Assembly: GCF_000384035.1 (NCBI RefSeq)
Contig: NZ_KB913024.1
Coordinates: 3,187,228-3,251,227 of the forward strand
Length of the DNA: 64,000 bases
Source of the DNA: Actinopolyspora mortivallis DSM 44261
Lineage (GTDB): Bacteria; Actinomycetota; Actinomycetes; Mycobacteriales; Pseudonocardiaceae
Direction of reading: 5' to 3'
In this document: positions 450-9,269 of the stretch, piece by piece
How positions within the stretch are numbered: the stretch's first letter is position 1
Layout of the letters: every line of letters begins with the position of its first letter
Translations under genes and position numbers: made by a program
The notes under the pieces: generated by a model
Seen by the model: only the letters and a program-made list of their open reading frames with translations
What the model was told of the DNA's origin: nothing
Databases searched by the model: none

Positions 450-522
450 GCCCTCGTAGCTCAGGGGATAGAGCACCGCTCTCCTAAAGCGGGTGTCGCA
501 GGTTCGAATCCTGCCGAGGGCG
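450..522 (+). tRNA. tRNA-Arg (anticodon CCT)
   Basis: A complete 73-nt cloverleaf: acceptor arms GCCCTCG (450-456) and CGAGGGC (515-521) pair perfectly, the anticodon stem is CCGCT/AGCGG around the loop CTCCTAA (anticodon CCT, reading AGG), and the T arm is GCAGG-TTCGAAT-CCTGC. CCA is not encoded. Its 3' half (from 481) is duplicated at 8836-8881, so the gene served as the attachment site of the island to its right and keeps a complete sequence after integration. Confidence 0.95.
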
Positions 523-526
523 CACA
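481..526 (+). repeat. Left attachment repeat of the island (inside tRNA-Arg)
   Basis: These 46 bases, from the anticodon loop to just past the tRNA 3' end, recur without mismatch at 8836-8881 in the same orientation. Position 480 (T versus C) and position 527 (G versus A) differ, which fixes the repeat edges. The repeat and the adjacent integrase gene identify it as one end of an integrated element. Confidence 0.93.
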
Positions 527-615
527 GCTTGACCAGCGAAAACGACTTTTCGAGGTCGAGAGTTCGAAGCTCGTGGGCATGGTTGTGGGCATAAGTTGCC
601 CTAGACTTGATGTCC

Positions 616-2042
616 ATGGCGACTCGTAAGCGCCGCTCGCGCGGCAACATCGAGGAACGTGGCGACGGCTTCCGTGTTCGGGTCTACGCCGGTGTCGATC
701 CGCTGACGGGCAAGCAGCACTACCTCAAGGAAACCCACGGCAGCTACCGCGAGGCCGAGAAGGCGCTGACCCGGCTGCAGAACCAGGTCGACGAGAAGCG
801 GCACCCGCGCAGCAACGTCACGGTCTCGCAGGTGCTGGAGCAGTGGCTGGAGGTCGCACGGCACGAGGACAGCACCCGCGAGCGCTACCAGGACCTGATC
901 CGGCTCTACATCGAACCGACCTTCGGCACCACGGCCGCGGCGAAAATCGACGCCGAACTGCTGGAGCGCTTCTACGCCCGGCTGCGGGACTGCAAGGACC
1001 TGTGCGGCGGGAAACGCGCGAAGGACCACGAGTGCACCCCGCTGGCCGCGAACACCGTGCGCAAGATTCACTTCATCTTCCGCTCCGCCTTCGACCGGGC
1101 GGTGCGGTGGCGGTATTTGTCGGTCAACCAGGCCGAAATCGCCCAGCCGCCGTCGTTCGAACGCAGCGAACCCGACCCGCCTTCAGCCGCCGAGGCCGCG
1201 AGCCTGCTGCGGGAAGCGTCGGAGGATCCACAGTGGTGTCTGCTGCTGTGGCTGACCATGGTCACCGGCTGCCGCCGGGGTGAGTTGTGCGCGCTGCGGT
1301 GGGGCGATGTGGACCTCGCGGCAGGGATGCTGTCCATCGAGCGCAGCTACTCCAAGACGCGCGAGCGTGCCCGGGAGAAGAGCACCAAAACAAGGCAGCG
1401 CCGCCGCATCGCGCTGGACACCACACCGTCGAGCTCCTGCAGGAGCATCGAGAGCAGGCGCGGTCGAACTGCGCCGCCCTCGGCACGGGTTTCGACGACA
1501 ACGCGTTCGTCTTCAGCACCGAACCCGACGGGTCGGCCCCGCTGCTGCCCCGCAGCGTCAGCCAGCGCTACCGGCGCCTGGCCCAACGCCTCGAACTGCG
1601 CAGCACCCGGCTGCACGCACTACGGCACTACTCCGCGACCGAATTGCTGGCCAACGGCACCGACCTGCGCACCGTGGCAGGTCGCCTCGGCCACGTCGAC
1701 GGCGGCGTGACCACGCTGAACACCTACGCCGGCTGGGTCACCGAAGCCGACCGCAAAGCGGCCAACACCATCGCCGACACCGTCCCCAGACCCCAGCCCG
1801 CCAACCGCCGATCCCGCAGCCCCTACGAACATCTCGCCGCCGAACTCCGCGACGCCATCACCAACGGGACCTACTCCCCCGGCGACGAACTCCCCACCGT
1901 CACCGACCTCGCCGCCACCCACGGCCTCTCCGCCGGCACTGTGCAGCGGGCGATCACGATGCTCCGAGAGGAAGGACTCATCAACGTCGCCCGCGGACGA
2001 CGCGCGACAGTTGCTCATAGAGGTCCCCAAGCAGCTCACTAG
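616..2042 (+). pseudogene. Tyrosine site-specific integrase with C-terminal GntR-like HTH, frameshifted
   Basis: Two frames together encode one tyrosine recombinase of about 475 residues. The first frame gives an N-terminal arm-binding region (GNIEERGDGFRVRVYAG), a SAM-like core-binding domain and the first catalytic arginine in TGCRRGELCALRW. Near 1420-1424 the frame must change by one base: the first frame reads into nonsense, while the other continues with THTVELLQEH. That part carries the remaining catalytic set: HALRHYSA (HxxR), GRLGHVDG, and the nucleophile in LNTYAGW. The last ~75 residues form a GntR-like winged helix (YEHLAAELRDAITNG... TVQRAITMLREEGLI). ATG codons at 610 and 616 are both possible starts. 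The shift is not in a homopolymer or slippery site, so mutation or sequencing error is likelier than programmed frameshifting. Confidence 0.88.
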
Positions 2043-2477
2043 ACACGCAGATCCTCATGTCTCAGTTAAGAAACTCGCTTCGATTCTATGGCACCAACCA
2101 AAGCGGAGTTGCGGACACGTCGCTTGCCTACGGAGGTCTCAGCCCTTCGCTAGGTGTGGCGCAGAGCGGTTGTGCTGGTTACAGTCGGCTTGCGCATTTG
2201 ATGCGCCCTGCAGGACCCTCCGATTCAACCTGACCTGGCCGACCTAGGTAGGAGCCCCTATAGCCGGTTGGCGCTGACTTTCGACGCGTGCCACAGCTAT
2301 TGACTGTCATGATCGCAGAATCATATAGAGCATTTTTTCTGGGAGCTCCAACCACTCAAAAATTTGACCATAAACAGTCGTCGAACCAGGGATGTAACAG
2401 TTCAACACCGCAAAAGCGATACATAGACCGAGCACACACTAAAACCTGACAGCATTTCTCCACAAACAAGGATACAG
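2043..2477. other. AT-rich intergenic region with a promoter
   Basis: These 435 bp hold no convincing gene; the short open frame at 2011-2247 has no family character. Composition falls sharply from the GC-rich integrase to AT-rich DNA after about 2050. A promoter-like pair sits at 2300-2329 and is listed separately. Confidence 0.5.
2300..2329 (+). promoter_or_regulatory. Sigma-70-type promoter upstream of the 605-aa unknown gene
   Basis: TTGACT at 2300-2305 and TATAGA at 2324-2329 are separated by 18 bp, close to the housekeeping consensus. It would start transcription near 2336 and leave a ~140-nt leader before the TTG start at 2478. AT-rich DNA gives such matches by chance more often, so confidence is moderate. 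Confidence 0.5.
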
Positions 2478-4295
2478 TTGGGACGAAAAAGAAATCAGCG
2501 CCGACAGAAACATGCAAACCGAGGATACTTCAAAGGGAAAAGACTCGAAGAATACGGAAAAACTGTCGGATCAACAGTTTCGGAATATGAACGTGCCGCT
2601 ACTAGAGGAATTGATTCACTTTACGGAGCGTTGGTATCGCGCCACAATCAACGTATGAAGCTAGTAGGGACCGCGCACCCAGAGATTCTTTCTCGTGCAA
2701 GATCCATATCATCGCGCTTGTTTCCAGTATTCCACGGACTACGCAGAACCGGCACCCACTTCCACAAATCACTTTCTCCTCATGGAATCAACTGGATCCA
2801 GCATTTGAACTGGGGGGCAGATAGCATCCTTGGGTCGATTAGATTTTTGACAAGCGGACAGATAGTGGGGGCAGCGCAGATTTCGCGATCGCAACTCGAG
2901 CGTTGGTCTATCAATCTTGAACACAACGGGAATTTTCAACGCCAAGAAGGCGAAACGACCGCAAATTATTTCGATCGCATTTGGACATCTAAACGTCCAC
3001 CAAATCCACTAATTCGCAACAATCAAGAACGATCGAAAAATCAAGGGAATCATGTCTGGCTCCCATCTGGAAATCGCTACGTCTCAATAGGACAAGTATA
3101 CAACGACCTTTCGGAGATTCTTCACGCTCGCGGTCGTGGCGTTGATCTCATTTTTCATGACACTGCTAACCTTCTTCAAGTCAATCGAGAATTCGAACTC
3201 GATCTATTGTTTGCCGGAAACCGTATCCTTGATGCTCTTGAAGCCTGCGTCGAGAGGCTCTACGTGTGCATTATAACTCTATACGAAGAGTCAGGAAACC
3301 TAGATGGTGTCCGGTATCAAGAAATGCAAAAATGGCAGGACACACAGTCAGGATCGTATCCGTATCCGTCGCACTGGTTGTGGCCACTCACACCAAATCT
3401 GATCTATGAAAGCAATATAAAAAACGAGCTCAAGACAGGTCATGAATACGCTGAATCAGTTTTCCGGGGCCAAAGACCACTCGAGCGGCATTTTACAAAT
3501 GCGGAAATTTCAGACATCCAGTTCTCTGATTTCAGATATCGCGCACTCCGAGAGGCCGAACATTCCTTCTCGATCGAGGAATCTATACTCGGTGAAGAGT
3601 TAGACTTCGCCCCGCTAAATAATAAACTGATTAGAATTATTGTAGTATCCGAAGCCCTGGGGCTCGCATCTATTTGGTCTTCAAATAAATATAAGCGCAA
3701 TTCATGCGCACTTATTTGCAGTGGTCTTCGGTCGAGCTTATGGTTGTGGCTTGAAGATGACGATCGAGCTATGGGAGTCCTGCGTCCAGTTGTTGAAGCA
3801 ATTTGTCGCTTGGAGGCGCACCGTAAGAAACCTGAGAAAGCAATGCGCCTAGAAGAACGCGGAGTTCGCACTTCTCCTCGAGATTGGTTAGCCGCATCCG
3901 GGCTTCGCAAACTCACGGTACTAAATTACGCACTAGGAGACCTTGCACATACGCGTATCAGTTCGCAGTGGGATGGATCTCGAGACCTCCTCATAGCATT
4001 GCAGCCGCCCGATGAAGACCCTGAAATCGCACCTTTTCGTGGAAGGGGATACACACTTGACGCGGTTGTGAGCATGGCTGCCAAAACGACACTTGAAATC
4101 ATCAAAGAATCATCTCCGCATGTCAGCGAAGTTTTATCGAGACTCTTCGCAAAGGTTGGGGTTTATGACCAACTACAGGAAAATGAACTACAGAATTGGA
4201 TCAATCGAGCATGGAATAGCCGCAATCATGACTTTGGAGATCCCACTTTCAAAAGACCACCACCGAACGAACGCAGTTTCACTGAAAACAAGTAA
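2478..4295 (+). CDS. Unknown 605-aa island protein
   Basis: No family is recognised. The start is a TTG at 2478 preceded by AAGGA (2468-2472) at 5 nt. The protein begins with a very basic stretch (RKRNQRRQKH), is otherwise soluble-looking and probably mostly helical, and has aromatic-rich segments such as WLWPLTPNLIY. Near the C-terminus RAWNSRNHD fits the loose RX4-6H pattern of HEPN ribonucleases, but such a short match can be chance. Base composition is strikingly AT-rich against the window, with many codons ending in A or T, which marks recent transfer from a lower-GC source. It stands alone behind its own promoter, next to a phosphotransferase remnant and an R-M set. A phage-defence or toxin role is a contextual guess only. 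Confidence 0.75.
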   Translation: MGRKRNQRRQKHANRGYFKGKRLEEYGKTVGSTVSEYERAATRGIDSLYGALVSRHNQRMKLVGTAHPEILSRARSISSRLFPVFHGLRRTGTHFHKSLSPHGINWIQHLNWGADSILGSIRFLTSGQIVGAAQISRSQLERWSINLEHNGNFQRQEGETTANYFDRIWTSKRPPNPLIRNNQERSKNQGNHVWLPSGNRYVSIGQVYNDLSEILHARGRGVDLIFHDTANLLQVNREFELDLLFAGNRILDALEACVERLYVCIITLYEESGNLDGVRYQEMQKWQDTQSGSYPYPSHWLWPLTPNLIYESNIKNELKTGHEYAESVFRGQRPLERHFTNAEISDIQFSDFRYRALREAEHSFSIEESILGEELDFAPLNNKLIRIIVVSEALGLASIWSSNKYKRNSCALICSGLRSSLWLWLEDDDRAMGVLRPVVEAICRLEAHRKKPEKAMRLEERGVRTSPRDWLAASGLRKLTVLNYALGDLAHTRISSQWDGSRDLLIALQPPDEDPEIAPFRGRGYTLDAVVSMAAKTTLEIIKESSPHVSEVLSRLFAKVGVYDQLQENELQNWINRAWNSRNHDFGDPTFKRPPPNERSFTENK

Positions 4296-4463
4296 CCTGC
4301 CCATCCATCTCGCCTGGCGCTAGCTTGCCTTACTTAGCAGATAGTGAGGCGGTGGCGCTCGCCGGATGTACCAGCTCACCAGGCAGTTCAGATTTGTATC
4401 GCTTAATAGCGAGGAGGAACTCTGCACACCTGTTCCGGGTCTCCAAAGCGATATGGTCGAGGT

Positions 4464-5447
4464 ATGACGCGTAGCCAGGACGAGGCAGCCGAGACCGTCG
4501 AACCGCTCACCCGCGAGACCGCCGCTCAGACCCTGAAGCAGGTGTGCCAGCGCACGGGCCTGGAATCGGCCGGAGCCGAGCTGGTCAGGATCGGTGAGAA
4601 CGCCGTGTTCCGGTTGCGGGAGCCGGTGATCGTGCGGATCGCCCGGACCTCGCGGTATGCCGACGCGGCCGCCAAGGAGGTGGCGGTCGCGCGGTGGCTC
4701 GAATCGGCCGACTATCCGGCTACGCGTGCTCTCGACGTGGAGCAGCCCATCGTGGTCGACGGTCGTGTGGCGACCGTGTGGGAGTCGGTGTCGGAGCACG
4801 AGGAGTACGGCGACATCGGCCAGGTCGCCACGCTGATCCGCGACCTGCACCGACTCGATCCTCCAGAGACGCTGGAACTTCCCGAACTCGACCCGTTCGT
4901 TCGCGCCGACACCCGCTTGGCCAAGGTCCGCGGCGTCTCCGACGACGACCTCGCGTTCCTCCACGAAGGGCTCGCCGACGCCCGCCGCAAGTGGAACGAA
5001 CTGGAGTTCGTGCTGCCACACGGCCCCGTGCACGGTGACGCGAGTATAGGCAACGTCATCCGGGCGTCCGACGGCCACGCCGTACTCATCGACCTGGACG
5101 GCTTCGCCACCGGCCCTCGCGAATGGGACCTGATCCAAACGGCCATGTACTACGACCGCTTCGGCTGGCACACCCGCGAAAAGTACGAGACCTTCGTCGG
5201 CATCTACGGCTACGACCTACTCGAATGGTCCGGCTACTCCGACCTGGCCGCCATCCGGGAAGTGCTCATGACCATCTGGCTCAGCCAGAAAGCCGGCGAC
5301 GACGAACGCGACACCCTGACTTCAACCTATCTATGTCGAGCATCCATGAGACCACTCCACATGGCCCTTCAGTTTCATTTGATTGAAAAATTACCGACAA
5401 GTACCCACCGTCACAAGGACCTGTTTCATGAGCACCCCCACCAATAA
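4464..5447 (+). CDS. APH-family phosphotransferase with replaced 3' end (possibly a pseudogene)
   Basis: This is a choline/aminoglycoside phosphotransferase-fold (APH, PF01636-like) protein. Visible elements are an N-lobe with GENAVFRL and VIVRIAR, the catalytic loop HGDASIGNVI, and the metal-binding LIDLDGF. After MTIWLSQKAGDDER (about residue 282) the expected family ending is lost: from about 5310 the DNA turns AT-rich and the next 45 residues (TLTSTYLCRAS...) look non-native. The first ~845 bp are GC-rich like the chromosome. The join suggests a deletion or insertion that cut the 3' end, leaving a hybrid C-terminus. The catalytic residues remain, so activity is possible. Substrate is unknown; the fold also covers hydroxyurea, homoserine and small-molecule kinases, and resistance should not be assumed. 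Confidence 0.75.
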   Translation: MTRSQDEAAETVEPLTRETAAQTLKQVCQRTGLESAGAELVRIGENAVFRLREPVIVRIARTSRYADAAAKEVAVARWLESADYPATRALDVEQPIVVDGRVATVWESVSEHEEYGDIGQVATLIRDLHRLDPPETLELPELDPFVRADTRLAKVRGVSDDDLAFLHEGLADARRKWNELEFVLPHGPVHGDASIGNVIRASDGHAVLIDLDGFATGPREWDLIQTAMYYDRFGWHTREKYETFVGIYGYDLLEWSGYSDLAAIREVLMTIWLSQKAGDDERDTLTSTYLCRASMRPLHMALQFHLIEKLPTSTHRHKDLFHEHPHQ

Positions 5448-5621
5448 ATAATCTTAATTCACAATCTGCTGACTGAAATTTTAATCATTTTATAAACATA
5501 CGATCCCAATTTATACAGCTTCCAATCCAAGGATCGCGAATATCTAAGAACACGTGCGCGTATCCGTCAAGTTCGCTGTCGCAACCAGGTTACACGCCAT
5601 GAGAACCACCACCCGTTGATC

Positions 5622-6524
5622 ATGCCCGGACGATGCGATATGTTGTCATATGTGGCTGAATCCACTACATCGCAAGCTTTCGCTGAGTTCAAGCTCAGCA
5701 TCACACGCGCTATGGCGGACCAGTTGGCGGAAGCCTTGGCCCGACTCGAACCCGCTCCTCTCACGAAGGAGAACGTAGAAGCTCTGGAAGAACGTCCTGG
5801 AGTGTATGAGCTGTTTCTGCGCGGTGAACGCGTCTACGTGGGTAAAGCGAGCAAGAGCAAGTCAAGCAAGGATCTTCCCGGGCGTCTTGGTGATCACATC
5901 CGGAAACTCTCGGGACGAGCGGGGATCTCACTTAGTGAGATAAGTTTCCAGTGCTTGTATGTCGACGAGGACCTGGAAGCGGCCGCTCCGGAAACTATGT
6001 TGATCAACAAGTACAAAGATAGGCGGCGACAGACGCTACCTTGGAACTTCAATGGGTTCGGCAACAATGACCCTGGGCGCAATCGCGACCACTCGGTGGT
6101 CAAATCCAATCACTTCGACGCGTGGTATCCAGTGGATCTCGACGTCCTCGTCTCCACGGGTCTCGAGCCAGGTTACTACCCCGTCACGAAGTATTTGGAG
6201 GCGGTCAAGACCGCTTTACCTTTCAATCTGCGATACGACAGCAAAGCGTTGTCTCCGCGGAAGGCTGACACGACTTACCTCGCGAAGATCCCCGCTCATG
6301 AGACGTCCGCGCGAGACTTGCTACGCGAAGCGGTAGAGGCTTTGCCCCGAGGGTGGCAAGCCACGGTGCTGCCTGGGTACGTAATCCTGTACCAGGAGGA
6401 AACCTCCTACAAGAGTGCCCGCTTGTACTGGCGCAAACACGACGACGAGGTGGTCGAGATAACTGGATTGAATCTCCGTGATCCCCAGGGCGAGGCGGGC
6501 GAAGAGCCTCCTCCAAACGAGTGA
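5622..6524 (+). CDS. GIY-YIG type II restriction endonuclease, Eco29kI-like
   Basis: The core reads PGVYELFLRGERVYVGK (GIY and YIG-like elements), followed by a conserved arginine segment (GRLGDHIRKL), a glutamate/asparagine region (ETMLINKYKD), and GFGNNDPGRNRDH. The last block matches what I recall of the Eco29kI/NgoMIII group of homodimeric GIY-YIG enzymes, whose known members cut CCGCGG. It would cleave unmodified DNA and depends on the methyltransferase that follows 57 bp downstream. The start is uncertain: ATG at 5622, 5640 or 5712 are in frame; the N-terminal helix up to the GIY motif favours 5622 or 5640. Specificity is inferred from the family and not readable from sequence. Lower GC than flanking chromosome. 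Confidence 0.82.
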   Translation: MPGRCDMLSYVAESTTSQAFAEFKLSITRAMADQLAEALARLEPAPLTKENVEALEERPGVYELFLRGERVYVGKASKSKSSKDLPGRLGDHIRKLSGRAGISLSEISFQCLYVDEDLEAAAPETMLINKYKDRRRQTLPWNFNGFGNNDPGRNRDHSVVKSNHFDAWYPVDLDVLVSTGLEPGYYPVTKYLEAVKTALPFNLRYDSKALSPRKADTTYLAKIPAHETSARDLLREAVEALPRGWQATVLPGYVILYQEETSYKSARLYWRKHDDEVVEITGLNLRDPQGEAGEEPPPNE

Positions 6525-6563
6525 CTAATCTTTCACCGTATCGCACGTGCGTTCGAACCAAAA

Positions 6564-6575
6564 CCGCGGTATAGT
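6564..6575 (+). promoter_or_regulatory. Methyltransferase promoter: CCGCGG abutting a TATAGT -10 box
   Basis: TATAGT at 6570-6575 lies 6 nt before the GTG start at 6582, the spacing of leaderless actinobacterial promoters. CCGCGG, the site recognised by known Eco29kI-type enzymes, occupies 6564-6569 directly against it. Methylation or binding at this site could couple methyltransferase expression to its own activity. The hexamer is common in high-GC DNA, so this is suggestive only. Confidence 0.5.
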
Positions 6576-6581
6576 CCTGTC

Positions 6582-7853
6582 GTGTTCACCGAATCCGCTG
6601 CTCAGATGACCTTGCCCTTGTCAAGTCCTCCGGAACTCGGCACCAGCGTCGAGCTATTCACCGGCGGTGGAGGACTGGCCTTGGCGATGCACGACGTGGG
6701 CTTTCGCCATCTGATCGCCGTGGAGTCGGATCGCCGCGCGTGTGAGACGTTACGGGCCAATGTCGCGGAGCCGTTCGCCCCCGAGACTCGTCAGGCGGAG
6801 ACCCTGAACTCCCAGTGGCCACTCATCGAGGGTGATATTCGTGAGGTGGACTTCACGCGGTGGACTGGTGAGGTCGATGTGGTCGCCGGCGGTGTCCCGT
6901 GCCAACCGTGGTCACTCGGTGGTGTTCACAAGGGCTACGAGGACGACCGCAATCTCTGGCCCGAGCTGTTTCGAGTCGTACGTGAGACACGTCCACGCGC
7001 GGTCATCGCCGAGAACGTCAAGGGGCTGCTGCGACCCTCGTTCAAGCCGTACTACGACTACATTCTCAACGAACTCCGTGCCCCCTTCGAGAAACGTGTC
7101 GAAGACGAAGAATGGCGCGATCACGACAGGCGCCTCCGCCAGGCCCTCACTAAGGAGGGCGCGGACCCGACAGAGCGCTACGACGTCGCCCACTTTCTGG
7201 TCAACGCCGCCGACTACGGCGTTCCCCAGATTCGCTGGCGAGTGTTCGTTATCGCCTTTCGTCGTGACCTTGGCTTGGCGGGATGGGAATTTCCCAAACC
7301 GACGCACTCGGAGTCAGCGTTGCTGTGCGCGCAGGCCAACGGTGAGTACTGGGACGAGCACAAAGTCTTCAAGAAGAACCGCTATAGTCCGGAACTATCG
7401 TCGCGAATCCTTGAGGAAGCGGAGAAAACTCAGAGATGGCGAACACTGCGTGACGCGATCACGGAAGAGCCCAAGCTAGGTGAGCCAGTGCACGAGAAGA
7501 TCGAACACCCGGATAACGGGTTTCTGCACCACTTCGCCTGGCCGGGCGCTCGTGAGTATCCTGGTCATACCCCCAACTTGTTGGACCGGCCCGCCAAGAC
7601 CATCAAAGCGGGAGTACACGGCGTGCCAGGTGGTGAGACCGTACTGCGTAAGCCGGATGGTTCTATTCGCTACATGACCGTACGCGAAGCCGCGCGTGTC
7701 ATGACCTTCCCTGATGATTGGGAAATCGCGGGCCCCCGGAGCGAGAAGATGCGTCAGCTCGGCAACGCGGTCCCCGTCGAACTTGGTCGCGTCACGGCCA
7801 ACGCTGTCGCGAAATCACTGAAACAGCGCCTTCATTCACACGCCGCGTCATGA
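6582..7853 (+). CDS. DNA (cytosine-5-)-methyltransferase of a type II R-M system
   Basis: All hallmark motifs of C5 methyltransferases are present in order: motif I (VELFTGGGGLALAMHDVGF, SAM binding), motif IV with the catalytic cysteine (GGVPCQPWSLGG), motif VI (AENVKGLL), motif VIII (QIRWRVFVIAF), and motifs IX/X (RYMTVREAARVMTFP, QLGNAVPVELG). Length, 423 aa, is normal. A GTG at 6582 is 6 nt behind a -10 box; ATG at 6606 is an alternative and both precede motif I. It follows the Eco29kI-like nuclease and overlaps the Vsr gene by ATGA (7850-7853), so it should protect host sites and be co-expressed with the repair nuclease. The target recognition domain lies between VIII and IX; its specificity cannot be read. 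Confidence 0.95.
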   Translation: MFTESAAQMTLPLSSPPELGTSVELFTGGGGLALAMHDVGFRHLIAVESDRRACETLRANVAEPFAPETRQAETLNSQWPLIEGDIREVDFTRWTGEVDVVAGGVPCQPWSLGGVHKGYEDDRNLWPELFRVVRETRPRAVIAENVKGLLRPSFKPYYDYILNELRAPFEKRVEDEEWRDHDRRLRQALTKEGADPTERYDVAHFLVNAADYGVPQIRWRVFVIAFRRDLGLAGWEFPKPTHSESALLCAQANGEYWDEHKVFKKNRYSPELSSRILEEAEKTQRWRTLRDAITEEPKLGEPVHEKIEHPDNGFLHHFAWPGAREYPGHTPNLLDRPAKTIKAGVHGVPGGETVLRKPDGSIRYMTVREAARVMTFPDDWEIAGPRSEKMRQLGNAVPVELGRVTANAVAKSLKQRLHSHAAS

Positions 7854-8692
7854 CGAACTCACACCCACTATGGAAAGAATCCAAGCCACCCGACACGGCA
7901 TGGAAGACACCCCGTGGACTAAGCAGGTCTGAACGCGCCGCGGAGCAGGACAACGCGGCCGGAGGTCGGGAAGCGCGCGAAATCCTCCTCCCAGAAGGAC
8001 GCAAGGTACACGCTTCCATAGCCCTAAGAGTCCTTCGTCAAAGTCGACGGATCTACGCGTACCTGCGCTGGTCCGTCAACGGAAAAACACACGAACGCTA
8101 TGTCGGGGAGGTCACTCGGGATACGCGAGAGGCTAATCTCGCCGAAGCGTGGTATACGGTGCGACGAGAAAATTTACTCGACATGAATACCTCAGACGAC
8201 ACCGTCAATCGGGCGGTAAATTCTGAGTCTTGGGCGACCACTCCTGCCTCACGGACGATCATGCGAGCGAACAAGAGACGTGATACTCGCCCGGAGAAGG
8301 CACTACGTTCAGCCGTACACGCTCTCGGCCTCCGATACCGTGTGGACACTCGACCGATCAAGGATGTTCGCCGCACCGCCGACCTCGTCTTTCCCAAACA
8401 GAAGATCGCTGTTTTCCTCGATGGCTGCTTCTGGCACGGTTGTGATGAACACTACCGTCCGGCCAAGGGTACTACGGCCACCTTCTGGAACAATAAAATC
8501 GCGGATAATCGTCGTCGTGACCTCGACACCGACCGACGTCTCCAACAAGCGGGATGGGAAGTCATCCGTGTATGGGAACACGACGACCCGATACACGCGG
8601 CTGAGCGCGTAGCCCATAGAGTCAACCAACTAAGATCATCTGCTCATGATCACACATCAGATTCCCCTCACGATTCAAAAGGTGATAATTAG
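7850..8692 (+). CDS. Vsr-type very-short-patch repair endonuclease with N-terminal extension
   Basis: Residues from about 142 form a Vsr domain: IMRANKRRDTRPEKALR, the catalytic-aspartate strand TADLVFP, FLDGCFWHGCDEHY, WNNKIADNRRRDLDT and GWEVIRVWEHD. Vsr nicks 5' of the T in T:G mismatches formed when 5-methylcytosine deaminates, so it belongs logically beside a C5 methyltransferase, with which it overlaps by 4 bp (ATGA). Unusually there is an extra ~140-residue N-terminal region. It contains YAYLRWSVNGKTHERYVGEV, which resembles small DNA-binding modules with an LRW/GKxxxRYVG pattern. Standard Vsr proteins are about 130-160 aa. The extension could read sequence context or bind the companion enzymes; that is inference. 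Confidence 0.88.
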   Translation: MTNSHPLWKESKPPDTAWKTPRGLSRSERAAEQDNAAGGREAREILLPEGRKVHASIALRVLRQSRRIYAYLRWSVNGKTHERYVGEVTRDTREANLAEAWYTVRRENLLDMNTSDDTVNRAVNSESWATTPASRTIMRANKRRDTRPEKALRSAVHALGLRYRVDTRPIKDVRRTADLVFPKQKIAVFLDGCFWHGCDEHYRPAKGTTATFWNNKIADNRRRDLDTDRRLQQAGWEVIRVWEHDDPIHAAERVAHRVNQLRSSAHDHTSDSPHDSKGDN

Positions 8693-8835
8693 TCTGAATT
8701 CTCTGTTCGATTTCCTGGTAGGAATCAGCCTTCGTGAGCATGAAGTAGGTGAATCGGGCGAGACAGTTGGAACGACAGCGACACATGGAACAACCATCGA
8801 CGCAGGTCAAACGCCTGCATGCGGTGTCGGCAGTC

Positions 8836-8881
8836 CTCCTAAAGCGGGTGTCGCAGGTTCGAATCCTGCCGAGGGCGCACA
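8836..8881 (+). repeat. Right attachment repeat of the island (tRNA-Arg 3' fragment)
   Basis: These 46 bp are identical to 481-526 and comprise the 3' part of tRNA-Arg(CCT). The 5' half of the tRNA is absent here, so this is not a tRNA gene. It marks the distal end of the island. Confidence 0.93.
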
Positions 8882-9269
8882 ATAGATTAGCCGGTTGACC
8901 TGCGACGGGACGCCAAATCGATCACCGTCGCCTGATCATCACCACTCGCTTCGTGGGGCACATGTGGGGCGGATTTCGTGCCTTGTCTGCCGAGACCGTG
9001 TGAGAGCTGGATGTCGAAAGCCGTACGGCTGCCCGACCTCCTCGATGTCCGTCAGCCCCGATGACAGCGGGAGCCCAGCCTCCGCGGACCCGTCGCACGC
9101 GCGAAGCAGTGCTGCTCCGGTCAGGTGATAAGCCCCGGAGAGGCGTTGGTGCCGGTGACGCTTCGTTGTTAGCGTGTTCGTCCCGAAAGCCGGATCCCAC
9201 CTGCGGACAGCACCGCCCTCGCGGTGGTCGCGATGACACGTGACCTCCTCTCCCCACCTGGCAGGAGGA
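8882..9269. other. Intergenic, no gene recognised
   Basis: About 390 bp of high-GC chromosomal DNA just outside the island. Short open frames on both strands lack family character and run antisense to one another. No clear promoter or structured RNA was seen. Confidence 0.4.

Follow-up and report, generated by a model that had tools for sequence, protein, structure and literature searches.

Our study of a window of 64,000 nucleotides from Actinopolyspora mortivallis DSM 44261 (the whole stretch of DNA that was analysed) has revealed an 8.4-kb integrative element in a tRNA-Arg gene, which is real, decayed and carries a restriction-modification (R-M) load. It probably belongs, in reduced form, to a family of integrative elements that have tyrosine integrases targeting the 3' ends of tRNA-Arg genes and two slots for defence DNA. 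The backbone would run in the order att, integrase/GntR, slot 1, APH-family gene, slot 2, right end and att, slot 1 being occupied here by a 605-aa gene and slot 2 by a type II R-M-Vsr operon. The features are given below with their positions in the window; genomes are designated by G numbers (G000 being that of the window) and sequence loci by L numbers.

450-523, + strand: tRNA-Arg(CCT), integration target, whole (ARAGORN)
481-526, + strand: left 46-bp att copy (exact direct repeat)
573-592, + strand: two GTGGGCAT copies near the left att, candidate integrase arm sites (read from the sequence, function putative)
622-1410, + strand: N-terminal piece of the tyrosine integrase, SAM-like domain and first catalytic Arg (Pfam PF14659, PHROG 1)
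1440-2042, + strand: C-terminal piece of the integrase in another frame, remaining catalytic domain and GntR winged helix (Pfam PF00589, PF00392)
2015-4448, no strand: slot 1, 48.6% GC, with no corresponding DNA in the elements of G117 and G134 (DNA comparison)
2478-4295, + strand: candidate defence effector of 605 aa, all-helical, its actinobacterial family unnamed (family searches, AlphaFold2)
4464-5447, + strand: APH-family phosphotransferase (Pfam PF01636; homologous DNA 4449-5309)
5310-8732, no strand: slot 2, 56.6% GC, with no corresponding DNA in the element of G117 or of G134 (DNA comparison)
5616-6524, + strand: GIY-YIG restriction endonuclease, Eco29kI type (Pfam PF09517; six active-site residues)
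6582-7853, + strand: DNA cytosine-5 methyltransferase (Pfam PF00145, E 2e-54; PADLOC MTase_II, E 6e-99)
7850-8692, + strand: Vsr-type mismatch endonuclease (Pfam PF03852 and TIGR00632, both above cut-off)
8733-8835, + strand: right-end segment conserved in the element family (DNA homology to G117, G134 and G177)
8836-8881, + strand: right 46-bp att copy (exact direct repeat)

The two copies of the 46-bp direct repeat are identical and lie 8355 bp apart, start to start. The left copy forms the 3' portion of the tRNA-Arg(CCT) gene, the sole tRNA gene called by ARAGORN in the whole window, and the sequence shows that integration duplicated these 46 bp while leaving the tRNA gene whole. The 41-bp core of the repeat, with up to 3 mismatches allowed, has two occurrences in the single-contig genome of 4,233,350 bases, both of them the element ends, and a reversed control pattern of the core has 0 occurrences in the same genome. 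An exact repeat of 46 bp at the 3' end of a tRNA gene is far beyond chance. The identical copies, the ARAGORN call and the genome-wide core count thus bear out the exact 46-bp ends, the 8.36-kb size and the tRNA-Arg(CCT) target given in an earlier note on this DNA. Of the features of tRNA-targeting elements, a tRNA-derived direct repeat and an integrase gene adjoining one att copy were both found, the gene being frameshifted. The G117 and G177 elements have GTGGGCATG at their right ends as well. The GC content is 67.8% in the integrase region, 66.9% in the phosphotransferase, 48.5-48.6% in slot 1, 56.6% in slot 2 and 57.3% in the 103-bp right end.

This tRNA-Arg site is a hotspot occupied by different elements across the genus. 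Two copies of the repeat core within 3 mismatches were found in eight of the ten genus genomes, G097 having a second copy with 4 mismatches and G150 one copy. The window integrase occurs at 90% identity or more in five of the ten (G000, G117, G134, G038 and G177); the four congeners share it at about 95% DNA identity and in two of them it is intact, namely in G117, whose 27.2-kb element occupies the same tRNA, and in G134, whose element is about 6.5 kb long with a decayed right repeat (9 mismatches). Incomplete integrase copies occur in the elements of G038 (about 9.8 kb) and G177 (10.3 kb), the former without the first 53-54 residues and the latter retaining only about residues 54-262, and their DNA between repeat and integrase differs in type from that of the window and G117. 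Other islands with the same integrase, for which the earlier note suggested a search, therefore exist, and the presence of this integrase with other cargo at the same tRNA in G117, along with varied elements there genus-wide, supports integration as the cause. The description as a compact carrier is better replaced by that of a reduced relative of larger elements of 13-27 kb. A gene for a secreted-looking protein of about 430 aa, recognized by eye, also recurs in the hotspot (L057, L087, L088 and L090, from G097, G165, G188 and G038).

The window and the G117 element are homologous in three blocks, 450-2014 (95.4% identity), 4449-5309 (95.4%) and 8733-8879 (98.6%), the only other match inside the element being that of the att copies against each other; homology to G134 covers 485-2007, 4507-5309 and 8733-8872. 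The right-end segment together with its att copy is 98.6% identical to G117 and 83% to G134, and 8733-8970 is 82% identical to G177. Because these breakpoints are sharp, the slots may be supposed to acquire foreign defence DNA by recombination which spares the integrase and the att sites. The DNA left of the tRNA is similar to that of congeners, and the right flank matches other genomes in part, up to 8970 in G177 and G038. The piece 8882-8970, right of the right att, is common to these two genomes and resembles the DNA 3' of tRNA-Arg(TCT) in G000:C1 (near 2755890), G177 and G038; it may represent one end of an older element.

The earlier note had looked for confirmation to an empty site in a closely related strain; no clean one was found among the 10 genus genomes, G150 being the one with a single core copy. 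G150 is without the element, its sole integrase match at E 1e-60 is some 480 kb distant, and no integrase-like ORF was seen by eye in the first 7 kb behind its tRNA. The DNA that it has in common with the region behind the G188 element starts about 1.0 kb from the tRNA, so G150 is without that 14.7-kb element. Its first 77 bp or so behind the tRNA resemble the elements of G188 and G134 at their tRNA-side (left) ends, and G150 was rejected as a clean empty site because of this element-like end. About 66 bp of the same type also adjoin the G117 element on its right side; the G150 sequence is likely a scar, and G117 has likely undergone accretion. The window is homologous to the G150 region again only from 21,211 onwards.

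The integrase frame is broken between about 1400 and 1440, and the two pieces are 98.5% (N-terminal) and 91.5% (C-terminal) identical to the intact G117 integrase. The first catalytic Arg falls in the N-terminal piece and the His-x-x-Arg, His and Tyr region in the C-terminal piece. The element's own integrase, claimed in the earlier note, is therefore supported as a gene but not as a working part. While the frame is broken, the element is probably without excision by its own integrase and, given also that the phosphotransferase has no normal end, it is probably immobile alone; the intact integrase of a related element could excise it in trans. A still mobile element, in which the break is an assembly error or is bridged in translation, would have both ends exactly identical and all catalytic regions present across the two pieces, as is observed here, but integrase decay is also found elsewhere in the family (G038 and G177), and we consider this reading unlikely in comparison with an element that has lost its mobility. 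The GntR winged helix (PF00392, 6e-16) is fused to the integrase C-terminus at 1821-2012, and the integrase matches in G122, G082 and G050 stop before it. Integrase-region DNA was found in none of the plasmids searched.

The element is comparable with the AICEs and decayed AICEs (DAICEs), which are accreted at tRNA-Arg of Streptomyces according to the accessible part of PMC9513070. The same part of that report describes 46-nt repeats in one AICE family at tRNA-Val, as well as cargo with R-M and phosphotransferase genes and frequent pseudogenes. The window element resembles them, as far as described there, in having an integrase, a tRNA-Arg target, direct repeats and variable, often broken cargo, and decaying, accreting tRNA-Arg elements with restriction genes are thus already known from Streptomyces. 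More generally, actinobacterial defence systems are often located on mobile elements (PMC10482375, from the portion consulted). The window element differs from AICEs in lacking a replication or FtsK/TraB gene and in its integrase-APH pair with a recurrent cargo gap between. Neither an FtsK/TraB transfer gene nor a replication initiator was found in its seven gene pieces (the initiator was sought with Pfam, PADLOC and NCBIfam, and for six pieces also with PHROGs); the earlier statement that transfer genes are missing holds for these pieces. PF01580 (FtsK/TraB) also has no match inside the 27-kb G117 element; descent of this branch from an AICE is thus at most putative, and the AICE label was lowered to 'related to'. 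An FtsK/TraB-type transfer gene is present in the distant G064 element.

The phosphotransferase was regarded as cargo in the earlier note, and a backbone gene is the better description, as it has 95% DNA identity with two other elements and lies near the integrase in at least 7 genomes. It was found at E 1e-60 or better in 25 of the 200 family genomes, G000 included, and within 6 kb of an integrase of the same family in at least 7 of the 25. Homology to relatives ends at 5309, the last 45 codons or so being not homologous; since G117 and G134 agree beyond this point, with 97% identity continuing past the stop of their phosphotransferase, the window gene has lost its normal end. An island which is chiefly a carrier of antibiotic resistance through this gene, with the R-M set as passenger, would accord with the APH family match, with a weak match to the APH(3') model and with the aminoglycoside phosphotransferase among AICE cargo (PMC9513070, in the part available). 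The APH(3') score of 20.3 against a cut-off of 205, the lost C-terminus and the sharing of the gene as backbone by relatives argue against it, and such a role is very improbable; a backbone gene between two defence slots is preferred. A regulator-like gene of about 465 aa (L056:9386-10777) adjoins the phosphotransferase in the opposite direction, and similar genes are seen in G122, G050 and G012 and are absent from the window (all by eye).

The integrase-phosphotransferase gap measures 64, 45 and 45 bp between ORF ends in three distant relatives (G122, G050 and G082), or 64, 84 and 90 bp by homology ends, and is filled with about 1.7-4.3 kb in others: 2.4 kb in G000, 4.3 kb in G117, 1.7 kb in G134 and about 3.4 kb in G005. 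Slot 1 of G134 holds a KwaA-like frame (8e-15) and a frame matching the C-terminal part of KwaB (3e-10); that of G005 holds Cas1 (4e-53), Cas2 (5e-13) and a CRISPR array (L112:8828-10052) whose repeats, about 30 nt long, mostly recur every 64-70 bp; and that of G117 holds an AT-rich gene of 711 aa (L056:11724-13859) with no Pfam or PADLOC match above cut-off. On these sequence comparisons the gap behaves as a cargo slot. In G122 an ATPase-like gene (P-loop by eye) directly follows the phosphotransferase, which is the position of slot 2. The integrases lie at tRNA-Arg(TCT) in G005, tRNA-Arg(ACG) in G082 and G050, tRNA-Arg(CCG) in G199 and G166 and tRNA-Arg(CCT) in G002 and G135; in G122, the 18 kb analysed contained no tRNA gene. 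Apart from the element, cas1 and cas2 (G000:C1:2773009-2774237) lie about 17 kb from tRNA-Arg(TCT) of the window's own genome.

Thirteen elements in which an integrase of this family adjoins tRNA-Arg or a repeat copy were viewed by eye (the window, G117, G134, G038, G177, G002, G135, G199, G166, G064, G113, G084 and G125), and PADLOC was applied to selected genes of 11 of them, G002 and G166 being left out and the G134 ORF between the KwaA and KwaB frames (L091:6495-6896) lying outside the scan. Defence matches were obtained in 7 of the 11: the window, G134, G199, G084, G064, G113 and G117 (an HNH protein). Among these, distant tRNA-Arg elements have defence-like genes near the integrase or the right end, namely PDC-M07A (9e-58) in G199, Ppl (2e-44) in G084, PDC-S58 (2e-58) with an ApeA-type HEPN in G064, and PDC-M34A and B (2e-50 and 6e-34) in G113. 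The genes scanned in G038 (2), G135 (3) and G125 (1) gave no match, and the single G177 gene gave a weak mad2 match only. Slot 1 resembles the core defence hotspots of Pseudomonas aeruginosa, where one position holds different defence systems per strain, and differs from them in being a gap within the integrase module of tRNA-Arg elements (PMC10250203, to the extent that it was available). No description of an integrase-phosphotransferase defence slot was found in the titles and abstracts of the literature searched, which covered few subscription papers.

The AT-rich gene of unknown family named in the earlier note is indeed present in slot 1 and encodes 605 aa with 0 matches in Pfam, NCBIfam, PADLOC and PHROG. 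Since the gap is filled by different defence genes elsewhere, its family becomes a candidate defence gene, and from its position the protein is probably anti-phage too. The AlphaFold2 model is confident and all-helical (pLDDT 87.7, pTM 0.90); a fold search with it gave no match at E 0.001 or better, the best being E 0.14 in the PDB and E 0.086 among BFVD viral models. A search with only close relatives within its reach found 31 loci of the family among the genome contigs searched, all titled actinobacterial, and an alignment of 26 members has 30 strictly invariant columns, including a WLWLE-DD-R stretch; W424, E426, D428, R430 and H491 are among the invariant residues. Among 150 family genomes, G000 and, in part, G058 alone have it, and it occurs in 2 plasmid records (one strain for both) and 0 phage records. 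A presumed tyrosine integrase gene family lies within the fetched flanks of 8 of the 31 loci, three of which (L013, L020 and L026) have many further genes in common. An internal duplication was rejected (HHalign of the two halves, probability 0.6%), as was a HEPN RNase, there being no HEPN Pfam match in the 26 members and no PDB fold match; in the R-x6-H like stretch ending at His491, the Arg is Tyr in the window protein and variable among members.

Neighbour scans covered 25 of the 31 loci (L009, L020, L023, L024, L026 and L032 were omitted by judgement as near-duplicates), with the own-family loci L054 and L055 excluded. Within 3.5 kb of the 605-aa gene, PADLOC matched 104 families among 132 proteins, and beyond 6 kb it matched 41 among 123, with several unrelated defence genes in each list. 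As defence genes occur at both distances, the case for defence rests on the slot and not on neighbour counts. Alternatively, the gene may serve stabilisation, be of toxin type or be a passenger that brings no benefit; the protein's lack of matches to solved folds, viral models or families and the absence of a sharp contrast between near and far neighbours are compatible with this, whereas the Kiwa-like or CRISPR-Cas adaptation genes held by the same slot in other elements and the invariant columns, which point to selection, speak for defence, so that a non-defence role seems rather unlikely. The fuller proposal, that the gap is a dedicated defence-capture slot of the tRNA-Arg element family throughout this actinobacterial family and that the 605-aa protein founds an anti-phage family whose all-helical fold is without a solved relative, is put forward tentatively, our confidence in it falling slightly short of even. 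A PAPS reductase-like gene family is also seen at four of the 31 loci (L030, L021, L023 and L024), of which three are Rhodococcus/Rhodococcoides with identical matches; in L030 the gene (6019-6867) is directly upstream of the 605-aa gene and matches BrxP, SspD and DndC models.

In slot 2, an Eco29kI-like type II R-M system was found, with a nuclease having the Eco29kI active site and an adjacent methyltransferase; the R-M set proposed earlier as defence load is thus supported and also includes the Vsr-type endonuclease, which has an N-terminal extension of about 130 aa and whose start overlaps the methyltransferase stop. Eco29kI is a GIY-YIG nuclease recognizing CCGCGG with active-site residues Y49, Y76, R104, H108, E142 and N154 (PMC1952068, in the part seen), to which Y64, Y74, R90, H94, E126 and N144 of the window nuclease correspond when placed by motif. 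The likeness extends to the GIY-YIG signature, these six residues and the neighbouring 5mC methyltransferase; the differences from the system, as described in that part, are a PF09517 match that narrowly misses the cut-off (29.4 bits, cut-off 30.8; E 8e-7) and the Vsr gene that follows, and Eco29kI specificity is putative here. Avoidance of CCGCGG was rejected as evidence, as the depletion (59 sites in the window, 89.5 expected) is also seen for other GC palindromes. Judged by their families, the methyltransferase is expected to mark the host's DNA, the GIY-YIG nuclease to cut DNA that lacks the mark and Vsr to repair T:G mismatches arising from deaminated 5mC.

This element illustrates how mobility can be lost with the protective load retained. 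The recurrent slot for cargo and the still unnamed family of the 605-aa protein are worth following: one fixed position which takes up Kiwa-like or CRISPR adaptation genes is a place to seek unknown defence genes, and the two unnamed proteins, of 605 aa in the window and 711 aa in G117, are candidates for testing.
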